The notes under the pieces: model-generated
Database searches by the model: none
What the model was told of the DNA's origin: nothing
Seen by the model: the letters and a program-made list of their open reading frames with translations, nothing else
Origin: an uncultured Sphingomonadaceae bacterium
GTDB taxonomy: Bacteria > Pseudomonadota > Alphaproteobacteria > Sphingomonadales > Sphingomonadaceae
DNA length: 42,654 nt
Reading direction: 5' to 3'
Assembly (NCBI GenBank): GCA_947501325.1
Contig: CANMVC010000008.1
Span: 1-42,654 of the forward strand
Shown: positions 24,494-42,653 of the stretch, in pieces
Numbering within the stretch: the first letter of the stretch is position 1
How the letters are laid out: every line of letters starts with the position of its first letter
Program-made: the position numbers and the translations under genes

Positions 24494-24519
24494 GTCCGCT
24501 ATGGGCGTATAGAGCGGAC
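24494..24519. repeat. Dispersed palindrome, copy C
   Basis: GTCCGCT (24494-24500) and AGCGGAC (24513-24519) surround a loop ATGGGCGTATAG. It begins 24 bases after the IS30 fragment and precedes the promoter region of the next operon. Confidence 0.7.
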
Positions 24520-26552: not shown

Positions 26553-26583
26553 AATGTCCGCTATGGGCGCAAAAGCGGACATT
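26553..26583. repeat. Dispersed palindrome, copy D (best preserved)
   Basis: AATGTCCGCT (26553-26562) and AGCGGACATT (26574-26583) are perfect 10-bp arms around ATGGGCGCAAA. It lies in the gap between the acyl hydrolase and methyltransferase genes and serves as the reference copy for the family. Confidence 0.85.
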
Positions 26584-30025: not shown

Positions 30026-30424
30026 ATTGTTTCGTCCAATCGGAGGGGGAAATTTGAATTTCAGTTCAACACTGATGTTCGGTGGAGGCCGGATTGCTTG
30101 TAAACGAGAGGATTTTTTGACGTCCGGTTACAACAATCCTACGTGTGTTATTTGTATAATACAGGGGAGTCAATGCTGTTGACTGTGCATTATGCAATGT
30201 CTGGACGTCTGATCGTTTTTTCCGGTTGAGTGAAATCAATCTTGAGTAGATCGAAGTGGAGAGCCTGGCACTTTGCGTTCGCCTCCTTTTAATGTCCTGT
30301 GTGGATGGCTCCCTCATTGCAAGGATTATTCGAGTGACTAGACCTAGGTTAGATACGGTCCTGTGTCCGGCCTGTTGATGTGGCGCAGATTATTTATCTA
30401 GCCACTGGCCCTGATGGTTTGCGC

Positions 30425-30503
30425 GAACACAGTCCCATTCCGCTTTTCGGACTATTGATGTCCTGGACACTAGTCGGGGTGTCTGTGTTCCCGGTCTAAC
30501 CGG
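30425..30503 (-). ncRNA. Candidate bridge/seek RNA segment of the IS1111 element
   Basis: GAACACAG (30425-30432) and CTGTGTTC (30483-30490) form a perfect 8-bp stem, extended by CCC/GGG. Its loop contains TCCGCTTTTCGG (30439-30450), ATGTCC (30458-30463) and GGACACTAG (30465-30473). The element's actual flanks are AATGTCC and TCCGCTGTCGGG, and the palindrome's right side ends GGACACTAG. A second hairpin CCGG-TCTAA-CCGG (30491-30503) follows. IS1111 elements are known to carry such a target-matching RNA in the end downstream of the transposase. Exact RNA ends are not determinable. Confidence 0.5.
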
Positions 30504-30575
30504 TGTGCCATCACTCTCATCGTCCTTGTAAACTGATTGCTCTACCTCCTTTGTTTTGTCGGTCGTTATTGTCGT

Positions 30576-31598
30576 CAGGTTATTGCTCTGGGCGTGAACG
30601 GTTCGTTCTTTGTAAGAACAGCCCAGATAATGCGTGCTGTCTTGTTCGCCATGGCAACGGTAGCAAGCCGGACAGGCTTGCGCTCAAGTATCGAGGCTGT
30701 TCCAAGGATCAACGCGATCAGGGTGCGTGCGGGCTGCTCTGACCCGTGATTACATCCCTACGACCAGTAGCTTGCGCAAGTACCGATCACCCATGCGCGA
30801 TATCTTGCCAAGTCGCTCTTTACCGCCGCTGGACTTATTGAGCGGTGTCAGTCCTATCCAGGCGGCAAAGTCCCGTCCGCTCCTGAACTGGTGACCGCTT
30901 CCGATTGTGGCAACAATGGCCGAGGCATTGACCGGCCCGATGCCCGGGATAGTTTGCAACAACTTGATGCGATTATCACTCTTGGCAGCAGCGGCGATGG
31001 CCTGGTCCATTTTAATAACACGGGCATGGATGAACAGCAGCTGCTCGCACAACGAGCTTATGACCTCTTTGGCGACACCGGGTATATCCCGATCTTCACC
31101 TGCATCCATATCTCTGGCGAAGCTGCGGATAGCTTCGAGACTTTTGCCTATGGTGATACCAAACTCACCGATTAGGCCCCGTATCGTGTTGGAGAGCTGT
31201 GTTCGCTGCCCCACCATCATCTCCCTTGCCCGGTGTTGGCACAATATGGCCTGCTGATCGACGGACTTCATCTCGACAAAACGCATTGTCGGACGGGTGA
31301 CAGCCTCGCATATGGCTTCGGCATCTGCTGCATCTGATTTACCGCGTTTGACATAGGGCTTCACATAAGCAGGTGGCATCAGCTTCACACTATGTCCCAG
31401 CCCCGTTAACTCGCGTGCCCAGTAATGAGCGCTACTGCATGCTTCCATGCCAACCAGACACGGCTCCAGCTTTGCAAAGAAAGCTAGTATCTGCGCTCGC
31501 CGCAACGGCTTGTTAAAGGCGACACTTGCGTCTTCCCTAACGCCGTGGACTTGAAAAATGTTCTTGGCCAGATCAAGGCCGATTGTGGTAATATGCAT
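30576..31598 (-). pseudogene. IS110-family transposase, broken by a stop and a frameshift
   Basis: The first 282 codons (MHITTIGLDLAKNIFQVHGV to RYLRKLLVVGM) are intact, with the DEDD residues in GLDLAK, GMEACSS and KSDAADAEAI and the C-terminal TIPGIGPVNASAIVA. A TAA at 30750-30752 ends it. Beyond, SRVRAARTHPDRVDPW continues in frame, then a one-base insertion, then GTASILERKPVRLATVAMAN in another frame to 30576. Two lesions mean this copy cannot move itself unless a shorter product is active, which is unlikely as the catalytic Ser region is lost in part. Confidence 0.85.
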
Positions 31599-31695
31599 AT
31601 GGGTGGCTCCTTGTGTTCGCAGTTTACGATAACAACTGCATTATGGCGCATTGCGACGCCGAGATCAGGAGCCATCCACACCATCCGCTGTCGGG

Positions 31696-32926
31696 TGCGA
31701 TTTCAACTGGTGGACGCAACACTTTAATCTTTAGATTTGAAGATGGAGTGTTGGATATGAAGCAGAGACGACGGATATATTTTAGCGATGCGCAGAAGCA
31801 GGAGATATGGGATCGCTGGCAGCGCGGGGAATCGATGAGTTCGATTGGTCGGGGTTTTGATCGGGATTCATCTTCGATCTATCCGTTGCTCTCTTTCGCG
31901 TGGGCGGCATTCGCCCACCGACGCGCAGGCGGTCGAGATTGGCGCTTACTCTTGCTGAGCGCGAAGAGATTTCAAGAGGCCTGACTGCCTGTCTGTCGAT
32001 GCGATCCATAGCTCGGCGGCTTGAGCGTTCACCCTCGACCATCAGCCGTGAGGTCAAGCGCAATGGCGGGTCCAGTCACTACCGGGCTGCCAGTTCTGAT
32101 CAATCGGCATGGGATCGTTCAAGGCGGCCCAAGCTATGCAAGCTCGCTTGCAATTCCTCTTTGTGCCAAACAGTAGCAGGCAAGCTACAGCGTCACTGGT
32201 CACCAGAACAGATCGCTGGCTGGCTCAAGCTAGAATATCCAGGAGAAGAGCATAATCAGGTGTCACACGAAACGATCTACAAAAGCCTGTATGTGCAGGC
32301 ACGCGGTGTCTTGAAGAAAGAGCTGCTCGCGCATCTGAGAGCCAAACGCACGATCCGGCGTTCCCGCCATGCCAGCTTGAAACGGGACGGTGTGGGCCAG
32401 ATCAAGGATGCCGTGTCGATCAGTGAGCGACCTGCGTGCGTGGAAGACCGGGCAGTTCCGGGCCACTGGGAAGGTGATCTGATCGCTGGATCAAACGGTA
32501 GCTATATTGCAACACTGGTGGAGCGCCACACCCGTTACGTGATGCTGGCAAAGGTGGCAAACAAGGATACAAGCAGCGTCGTCTCCGCGCTCATCAAACA
32601 GTCCCGCAAGCTGCCAAGTGAACTCTATAAATCCCTGACATGGGACAGGGGCAAGGAACTTGCCGATCACAAACGCTTCAAGCTAGCGACCAATGCAGAT
32701 GTTTACTTCTGTGATCCGCACAGTCCATGGCAGCGCGGCTCTAACGAAAATACCAACAGACTGCGGCGGCAATACTTCCCAAAAGGCACCGATCTATCAG
32801 TCCATAGCCAGGCCAAACTTAATGCGGTAGCAAGGGAACTTAACGAGCGTCCCAGAAAGACCCTCAGTTATGAAACGCCTGCCGAGCGGTTCGGGGCATG
32901 TGTTGCGTCCACCGGTTGAAATCGCA
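31696..32926 (+). mobile_element. IS30-family element (1231 bp)
   Basis: 27-bp terminal inverted repeats at 31696-31722 and 32900-32926 (both begin TGCGATTTCAAC, one mismatch: T or C at base 13) frame a transposase gene. The flanks TCGGG and CGCAAAAGCGGACACTAG rejoin to the loop and right arm of the dispersed palindrome. No direct target repeat of more than two bases is seen. Confidence 0.88.
31757..32919 (+). pseudogene. IS30-family transposase with frameshift
   Basis: The N-terminal helix-turn-helix part starts MKQRRRIYFSDAQKQEIWDR and breaks after SSIYPLLS near 31895. The rest continues one frame back as GGIRPPTRRRSRLALTLAER to the stop at 32919, including RSIARRLERSPSTISREVKR and the DDE residues in GHWEGDLIAG, LTWDRGKEL and GSNENTNRL. 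The shift lies in CTCTCTTTC. It may be a mutation or a programmed -1 shift, but there is no clear slippery heptamer, so a mutation is favoured. Confidence 0.8.
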
Positions 32927-33046
32927 CGCAAAAGCGGACACTAGCTTATTCAATCTATCTAACAGAAATCTGAAAGTGCTTTTAGAAACAATGCTGTTCA
33001 GGGTGTGCTGATGTGATATCGCTGCGACCAGAGTTTTTAGGGAATT

Positions 33047-33685
33047 ATGATCCAAATGGAACAATTGGCACAAAAAGCAAAACGGAGATTTAGTCCGGCA
33101 ATCCGGCGCTCCATGATACTTGATAGTGCGGCAGAGCTGATTTCAGCAAACGGGCTGTCCAAGCTATCAATGGAAGCTATTGGGCAGAAGGCGGATGTCA
33201 GCAAATCGCTGATGTATAAGTATTTTGACAGCCTCTCCGATCTTTTGAAAGAGTTGCTGAAACGTGAACTTACCATACGTTGGAAACGTCAAGTGGCCGT
33301 GGCTGAAAAAGCTACTACGTTTGAAGAGCTGGTTCGCGGTACAACGCATGTTTATCTCAGCTTTATCGCCGAGCGCGGCCTGATCATTGAACCTCTGCTC
33401 GCTGACCCTTCGATTGCGAAACTATATCATCCGGCCCGCTATAATCGTGAAGTGGCCGTAAAATATTTCACTGATATTGTGGTCAAAAATTTCGATATGC
33501 CCCCGGAAATTGCTAGAGCAGTGACCGATATATCGTTAGGCATACCCGCGTCAGCCGGAGAATATCTGTTACGTGGTGAAATGGATCTGGAGGAGTTAGA
33601 AGATATAACGGTTTCGATGATGATCGGGACATATACGATGGCCCGCTTTGATTATTTCACACGGAAGAAAAAGCTGGAAAGATAA
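33047..33685 (+). CDS. TetR-family regulator
   Basis: 212 residues, AGGGAATT before the ATG. RSMILDSAAELISANGLSKL and ADVSKSLMYKYFDSLSDLLK form the DNA-binding domain; the rest is a helical ligand domain with FIAERGLIIEPLLADPSI. It lies 120 bases after the IS30 end, so its original upstream partner may have been displaced, and is convergent with the alpha/beta hydrolase. Regulated target unknown. Confidence 0.87.
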   Translation: MIQMEQLAQKAKRRFSPAIRRSMILDSAAELISANGLSKLSMEAIGQKADVSKSLMYKYFDSLSDLLKELLKRELTIRWKRQVAVAEKATTFEELVRGTTHVYLSFIAERGLIIEPLLADPSIAKLYHPARYNREVAVKYFTDIVVKNFDMPPEIARAVTDISLGIPASAGEYLLRGEMDLEELEDITVSMMIGTYTMARFDYFTRKKKLER

Positions 33686-42047: not shown

Positions 42048-42653
42048 TCATGCATTTACCTCCTGATCATTCCATTGGAACTGTGTACCGTCCATCCACA
42101 TACGGTGGAGGATGACAGCAAGTTTGCGAGCGACAGCAACAGTGGCGCGTCGTCGCCCTTTGGTTTTGATGAGGCGCAGGCCCCATGCCTTGAGCTGTGA
42201 CATGGTACGCGTCCGGGTGAGCAATGAGTGCGCCGCTGAGTAGAGCGCCGAGCGGACATCTGCGTCACCGGCTTTGGATATGCGCCCCTGGTTATCGCTT
42301 TCGCCAGATTGGAACCGGCGCGGTGTTAATCCGAAGTGCGCGCCGACAATCCGCGAGGATGTAAACCGCGGCGGATCATCAACGGCTGCTTTGAAGTGAA
42401 GGGCCGTCACCGTGCCAACACCGGGAGCCGTCATCAGCAGCATGCAGACCGGGTCTTGGGAAGCGACCAGCTTCACGCGTTTATCCAACTCCTGATAGCT
42501 GGTCAGTAGCACCTGTTGTGCATCCAGCATTGGCAGGAGCGCAAAGGCAAGTGCTTCATCTGCTTCAATGATCGGTCTCACCGTTTCTGCAAAGCGATGA
42601 TGGGCCAGTGTAGATGGAAGGCGCAGACCAAACACCTTAAGCAGGCCGCGTAT
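42048..42653 (-). CDS. IS110-family transposase, C-terminal part (cut by window end)
   Basis: The frame is open to the window edge; about 202 residues are seen, from IRGLLKVFGLRLPSTLAHHR to FQWNDQEVNA. LMTAPGVGTVTALHFKAAVD and FGLTPRRFQSGESDNQGRIS belong to the C-terminal Tnp domain with its catalytic Ser region, and ADVRSALYSAAHSLLTR follows. It differs clearly from the copy at 30576. The N-terminal DEDD part lies outside. No break is seen in the visible part. Confidence 0.85.
   Translation of the reverse strand: MRGLLKVFGLRLPSTLAHHRFAETVRPIIEADEALAFALLPMLDAQQVLLTSYQELDKRVKLVASQDPVCMLLMTAPGVGTVTALHFKAAVDDPPRFTSSRIVGAHFGLTPRRFQSGESDNQGRISKAGDADVRSALYSAAHSLLTRTRTMSQLKAWGLRLIKTKGRRRATVAVARKLAVILHRMWMDGTQFQWNDQEVNA

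Follow-up and report, generated by a model that had tools for sequence, protein, structure and literature searches.

An uncultured member of the Sphingomonadaceae carries, within an analysed stretch of 42,654 nucleotides (the window), an IS1111-type insertion sequence with a stem-loop in its non-coding end. The loop of this structure shares letters with both sides of the insertion site, a palindrome that recurs in the same genome, which raises the question of whether the stem-loop belongs to an RNA that guides the element to its target. Comparison with related elements indicates that it does, and we put at roughly 93% the probability that the stem-loop forms the part of an IS1111-type guide RNA (seekRNA or bridge RNA) that reads the target. 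In outline this mechanism has been described before; what the window element adds is a further IS1111 member whose guide RNA can be read and whose target is a repeated palindrome. The limits of the element, the RNA structure, the covariation between guides and flanks and the palindromic target with its uninterrupted counterparts were established by sequence comparison, and the features are collected in Table 1.

Table 1. Features of the IS1111-type element, its guide-RNA region and its insertion site (window positions; guides are named T and B)
Feature	Position	Strand	Basis
Entire IS1111-type insertion sequence (1389 bp)	30298..31686	- (tnp direction)	inverted repeats and extensions as in relatives; PF01548, PF02371, NF033542
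Transposase reading frame, 282 aa	30750..31598	-	early stop ends the frame
Subterminal inverted repeat, right end (tnp orientation)	30299..30312	+	
Subterminal inverted repeat, left end (tnp orientation)	31668..31681	+	
Conserved guide-RNA (seekRNA) region used for alignment	30404..30514	-	56-sequence alignment A1, consensus structure
Outer stem, arm 1, GAACACAG (as in the preliminary description)	30425..30432	+	
Outer stem, arm 2, CTGTGTTC	30483..30490	+	
Guide T, CTAGTGTCC	30465..30473	-	covaries with right flank R2, R3, R5-R9
Inner hairpin GGAC-AUCAAUA-GUCC between guides T and B, including the ATGTCC of the preliminary description	30449..30463	-	3 of its 4 pairs change on both sides
Guide B, RNA AAAAGCGGA; letters equal left target half plus first letters of the element	30439..30447	-	covaries with left flank L1-L5 and element +1, +2
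Third RNA segment CACAGGAC, candidate donor guide; letters equal the joined element ends (right extension ACA plus left GGA)	30358..30365	-	blind scan
Right half of the target (minus strand GGACATT; AATGTCC as read on +)	30291..30297	.	
Left half of the target (minus strand CCCGACAGC)	31687..31695	.	
Other arm of the split target palindrome, CGCAAAAGCGGACACTAG	32927..32944	+	direct reading; uninterrupted counterpart in two relatives
IS30-family element in mid-palindrome, outside the guide system	31696..32926	+	ends by eye

The element and the state of the window copy

The subterminal inverted repeats of the window copy are 14 bp long and 100% identical, and they are extended by 7 bp (GGATGGT) outside the left repeat and by 3 bp (ACA) outside the right one, the limits at 30298 and 31686 having been set by comparison with relatives. 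IS1111 members usually have subterminal inverted repeats of 11-13 bp, and extensions of 7 bp on the left and 3 bp on the right are described for them (Siddiquee et al. 2024, PMC11187229, cited throughout from excerpts). The transposase matches PF01548 (E 2.3e-11) and PF02371 (E 2.1e-24), with both the DEDD (RuvC-like) N-terminal domain and the PF02371 C-terminal domain present, and scores 292 bits against NCBIfam NF033542 (cut-off 140). The IS1111 motif GL-P----S(T)G of the C-terminal domain (PMC11187229) was found by eye in the reading frame as GLTPLNKSSG, and just two solved structures matched the protein at E 0.01, the transposases of ISCro4 and IS621. Downstream of the gene lies the long non-coding stretch that contains the stem-loop. 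A second IS110-like transposase stretch, 31% identical to the first, is located at 42243-42653 and runs into the end of the window.

The window copy is probably dead, or at least not autonomous any more, because its transposase frame is broken. The frame stops after 282 aa, compared with 339-345 aa in eight of the ten elements among those listed, and falls short of the 330-350 aa taken as full length for an IS1111 transposase, a measure of autonomy and not of kinship. When the transposase of locus L065 served as probe for the end of the gene, similarity continued in the same frame past the stop to residue 299, while the last 39 residues (300-338) were found in another frame. In the nearest relative, L064 (90% protein identity to the window copy), the frame already stops at residue 32, and both of these closest copies look decayed. 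No further copy of the element was found in its own genome, where it is single. The shortened frame, the displaced final part of the gene, the early stop in L064 and the single copy all favour regarding the guide RNA of the window copy as a relic of a once RNA-guided element that its own protein can no longer move. This reading is compatible with a guide RNA as the best explanation and we consider it quite probable; a transposase supplied in trans is conceivable, though the sole other match in the genome is the 31% identical stretch.

RNA fold and covariation of guides with flanks

Relatives were taken as the best 80 loci from a scan of one-per-species genomes, giving 81 elements together with the window copy. 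Both repeats were present at no more than two mismatches in 70 of the 81 (one of these, L094, is doubtful), and in 69 a text pattern recovered a strongly conserved RNA region, some 110 bases long and variable in its core. The 12 elements whose RNA the pattern missed were dropped, and from the other 69 we removed five without a clear end (L069, L073, L086, L091 and L099), 11 with a flank cut by the contig end and three with duplicate flanks, which left 50 elements with both flanks known and distinct sites. Of the dropped rows, 24 were re-examined, and 14 with a usable right flank and guide served as left-out elements for guide T. The corresponding test of guide B was run on seven rows and, as this first pick had omitted usable rows, was redone with 14 including L094 and L108. 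Rows that stayed unused comprise L127 (deletion), L131, L132, L129 and L084 (guide or end missing or badly aligned) and those with too-short flanks. L127 keeps both repeats, but no more than about 900 bases separate the start of its transposase gene from its right end, and a deletion seems to have removed the end of the gene together with the first half of the RNA. In L109 two candidate right ends are present.

The letters and positions of the stem, loop segments and flanks proved to be as given in a preliminary description of this DNA, which had found TCCGCTTTTCGG, ATGTCC and GGACACTAG between the two stem arms and had called all three guide-like. RNAalifold, applied to 56 of the 58 distinct RNAs (alignment A1; L076 and L128 were excluded for insertions), returned the same outer stem, a 3-bp helix, the inner hairpin and two short conserved helices. 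Changes on both sides were observed in ten of the 18 pairs of this consensus structure (6.8 in shuffled alignments, reached in 1/500) and in all six pairs of the outer helix. The proportion of paired cells (96.4% vs 87.9% shuffled), the number of cells with a double change (118 vs 34) and the covariation score (0.332 vs 0.169) exceeded every shuffle (0/500 each), while the number of further pair types, one of the five structure measures, was unexceptional (21 vs 19.4, 98/500). Shifting the partners by one column reduced the paired cells to about 50%. Folded singly, the window RNA forms the same stem and hairpin with mild stability (z -1.5; 15 of 200 shuffles fold as well). Judged from the alignment, the stem is above chance as a property of the family. 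No Rfam 15 family reached its cut-off anywhere in the window, including 30404-30514; 58 distinct sequences of this IS1111 RNA region, the window included, were gathered all the same.

Read 5' to 3' on the minus strand, the loop presents guide T (CTAGTGTCC), the hairpin GGAC/GTCC and guide B (AAAAGCGGA). Two of the three segments of the preliminary description thus held up as guides, while ATGTCC (GGACAU in the RNA) had to be given up as one: it is an arm of the internal hairpin, which keeps its pairing through both-sides changes in three of four pairs. Guide T was complementary to the right flank in 347 of 450 cells (50 elements, nine columns), compared with 267±7 when the sites were redealt (0/2000), with an excess at R2, R3 and R5-R9, a nearly invariant R4 and none at R1 and R10. 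Guide B, aligned on its AAAAGC columns, was identical to the left flank in 242 of 350 cells over L1-L7 (179±6 shuffled, 0/2000; 50 elements), the excess being confined to L1-L5 with none at L6 and L7. A blind scan of RNA columns against 28 DNA positions placed its top eight pairs on the T diagonal, on the B diagonal and in a third short segment. From the ninth rank onwards the scan also returned off-diagonal pairs, such as hairpin columns with element +6, an indication that its single-column scores are inflated by kinship. When sites were shuffled within transposase clades at three thresholds, guide T was matched in 0/5000 at each and guide B in 45, 0 and 0 of 5000.

The left-out elements behaved similarly. 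Guide T fitted in 82 of 112 cells (65±4, 0/20000; 14 rows) and guide B in 60 of 70 (46±3, 0/20000), the 14 rows of the latter including four copies of one element with the same five letters. Without the five 5-letter rows the count for B was 35 of 45 (26±3, 14/20000), and for the first pick of seven rows it had been 31 of 35 (22±3, 9/20000); L094 and L108 each fitted guide B at two of five positions. Two checks put forward in the preliminary description, covariance folding across related copies and comparison of loops with flanks, came out in its favour, since the stems covary and guides T and B covary with the flanks. They support its proposal that the non-coding end of this IS1111 element supplies a guide RNA with loop matches to either half of the target.

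The same loop at unrelated sites, which the preliminary description would have counted against a guide, was encountered in part. L116 and L109 are poorly fitted, 44 and 40 of 49 foreign sites scoring higher than their own, and in L140, L134, L143 and L133 the own site is beaten by 14-24 of 49 foreign sites. Four copies of one element (L101, L103, L104 and L105; alignment score 1.0) combine one guide with four right flanks, to which guide T fits at 3, 8, 6 and 3 of eight positions, respectively, the low values being those of L101 and L105. This set provides a natural gauge of mismatch tolerance or off-target insertion. The RNA letters that read given target letters in an IS1111 branch could be resolved from sequence alone, and the comparison adds a well-resolved natural series from the Alphaproteobacteria in which one RNA scaffold carries many guides to many sites.

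Known systems and candidate donor letters

The closest counterparts are the IS1111 seekRNAs of ISEc11, ISPa11 and ISKpn4 (PMC11187229), which resemble the window element in the downstream non-coding region, the subterminal repeats, the extensions of 7 and 3 bp, the order of top before bottom match (in our case by covariation only) and the overlap of the two matches in the target; ISPa11 likewise targets a REP palindrome. Differences concern the host group, the repeat and the guide letters, and the published set consists of a few elements with experiments, whereas ours consists of 50 elements compared by sequence only. In IS1111 the top-strand match lies 5' of the bottom-strand match and in IS110 this order is reversed (Siddiquee et al. 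2024, PMC11187229), and the segment order that the preliminary description had left as a puzzle, with T before B, is this published IS1111 order. The bridge RNA of IS621 (Durrant et al. 2024, PMC11208160, also cited from excerpts) is similar in having two guides per loop for the top and bottom strand, donor-reading letters and guides tested by covariation. It differs in being encoded upstream of the gene with the opposite guide order, while the window RNA lies downstream with the order reversed; the window element thus lacks the marks of an IS110-type (IS621-like) member, an RNA upstream of tnp with the bottom-strand guide first. For the IS1111 group the excerpts of the same study present predicted structures, hand-inspected loops of a few members and potential donor-binding letters in the multi-loop. 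REP palindromes as insertion hot spots were also described for insertion sequences of Pseudomonas, Sinorhizobium and Neisseria, in the excerpted text without an RNA mechanism (Tobes and Pareja 2006, PMC1525189).

Closer examination of the letters at the element boundary pointed to a possible role of the RNA in reading the donor. The first letter of the element differs from the first letter of the target in 24 of the 50 elements, and guide B +1 agrees with the element in 22 of these and with the target in one. When copies with 95% identity or more but different insertion sites are paired, all 15 pairs (several with members in common) agree in the first element letter and nine disagree in the target letter; the first letter is therefore assigned to the element. 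The opposite assignment, in which the target supplies element +1 and the circle supplies R1, is argued against by these near-identical pairs as well as by L128, whose two arms reach nine paired letters only if R1 is a target letter. In the blind scan, the third segment CACAGGAC agreed with the joined element ends in 49 of 50 elements at e-2 and in 38 of 50 at element +1, disagreeing at the latter in 12. By parsimony on the transposase tree, element +1 changes five times and guide B +1 seven times (jointly seven), and e-2 changes four times and its RNA column five times (jointly five). Because these letters change only four to seven times on the tree, the evidence from donor letters weighs as a handful of events and not as 50.

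Guide B may accordingly be adapted to the junction of the element in place, that is, to the left flank plus the first letters of the element, and not to the empty target, with the third segment reading the joined element ends; we hold this tentatively and give it slightly less than even odds. If true, letters shared between donor and target would let a single RNA check both, in keeping with the published requirement for correct donor flanks (PMC11187229), and the RNA could in this way distinguish a resident element from an empty site, an idea open to test. The excerpts of the 2024 seekRNA paper state that it is not known which part of the complex recognizes the ends of the element (PMC11187229). 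Durrant et al. (PMC11208160) describe potential donor-binding letters in the multi-loop of many IS1111 RNAs, and a donor segment as such is therefore not new. Among the titles and abstract openings of the literature on IS1111, seekRNA, bridge RNA and bridge recombinases, a survey with preprints outside its scope, no other paper on covariation between guide and donor in IS1111 was found.

The palindrome and the word that is read

The claim that the target is a repeated palindrome was borne out in the own genome, which contains 20 sites of GTCCGCN{6,18}GCGGAC compared with nine of the reversed control. Two intact target palindromes are located in the window (24494-24519 and 26556-26580), each matching on both strands, where 0.03 matches are expected by chance. 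A looser form of the pattern had at least one match in 266 of 298 genomes, the reversed control being equal or higher in many of those listed, and a clear excess over this control was apparent by eye in some of them (G153, 37 vs 5; G243, 36 vs 3; G142, 21 vs 2; own genome, 12 vs 1). Abundance of the palindrome across the whole bacterial family is unsupported, the reversed control often being as high or higher. Titles and abstract openings of the literature on palindromic repeats in sphingomonads included none evidently about this repeat.

If the target were picked by its palindromic shape, as a folded hairpin, the loop letters would be a mere resemblance. The window copy (in a palindrome split by IS30), L128 (9-bp arms) and L064 (one mismatch in the arm, judged by eye) are indeed located in palindromes, and IS1111 members at the potentially folded sites attC and REP have been published (PMC11187229). 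Across the junction of the joined sites, however, a stem of at least seven pairs occurs in one of 50 (control 2.4%; the window copy is missed, IS30 splitting its left flank) and one of at least six pairs in five of 50 (control 6.8%), and yet the guides covary with the flanks. Selection by shape is consequently very improbable, and palindromy as a rule for the whole branch was rejected. Because few relatives sit in palindromes, the guide RNA, on this comparison, is a reader of a linear word of about 14 letters that equals one palindrome arm, and palindromy is incidental. The earlier idea that the element seeks a palindromic repeat family is thereby retained for the letters of one arm and abandoned for palindromy itself; as to whether further copies all sit in the palindrome, the own genome offers the single copy and the relatives lie mostly outside palindromes.

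At its own site, guide T of the window copy matches seven of nine positions by Watson-Crick pairing and eight of nine with G-U, and guide B matches four of six letters of the left flank. The second flank of the preliminary description, (TCC)GCTGTCGGG at 31684-31695, includes three letters (TCC at 31684-31686) that belong to the 7-bp left extension of the element and not to the flank. Together the window guides match 11 of 16 positions of their own site, with six of 49 foreign sites scoring higher and three equal. Taken from the window copy alone the evidence for guides is weak, and it is the family comparison that makes it strong: a chance sharing of short words between a stem in the non-coding end and a common repeat, to which this own-site match and the z-score of -1.5 would lend themselves, is the least probable account, given that guides and flanks covary across the 50 elements, under shuffling within clades and again in the elements first left out.

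The guide-RNA reading also extends to the other arm of the palindrome, beyond the IS30-family element, which by direct reading fits both guides at 15 of 15 positions (AAAAGC plus GGACACTAG, 32930-32944). Of 34 distinct arms from sampled stretches of the own genome, 15 fit at no fewer than 12 of the 15 positions, and 15 can pair with guide T along its whole length once G-U is allowed. The split palindrome lies upstream of a TetR-type gene (33047-33685). At the corresponding place an intact palindrome is found in the relatives L163 and L168 and a degenerate one in L162, L164, L165 and L166, aligned on the gene side only; in L167 the alignment sets in only farther downstream. Since this place holds a palindrome, intact or degenerate, in relatives, the insertion most likely entered a pre-existing palindrome.

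The following mechanism is proposed. The stretch that follows the transposase gene would be transcribed into an RNA, which would fold so that the outer stem and the inner hairpin present two guides. A complex of transposase and this RNA would find AAAAGC/GGACAYTAG (the slash marks the insertion point), a word of the palindrome arms repeated in this genome and in some others of its genus, and the circular element would be inserted between the C and the G. The G of guide T at the sixth pairing would face C or, by wobble, T, and both common versions of the arm (GGACACTAG and GGACATTAG) would be readable. Transcription, binding by the transposase, the circular intermediate and past activity of the element are steps that we infer.

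The repeated palindrome is a landing place for two unrelated insertion sequences, one of the IS1111 type and one of the IS30 family. Six other places with an IS30 end were examined by eye; four of them (L172-L175) adjoin an exact GTCCGC/GCGGAC half palindrome, while L170 adjoins a half with one mismatch and L171 none.
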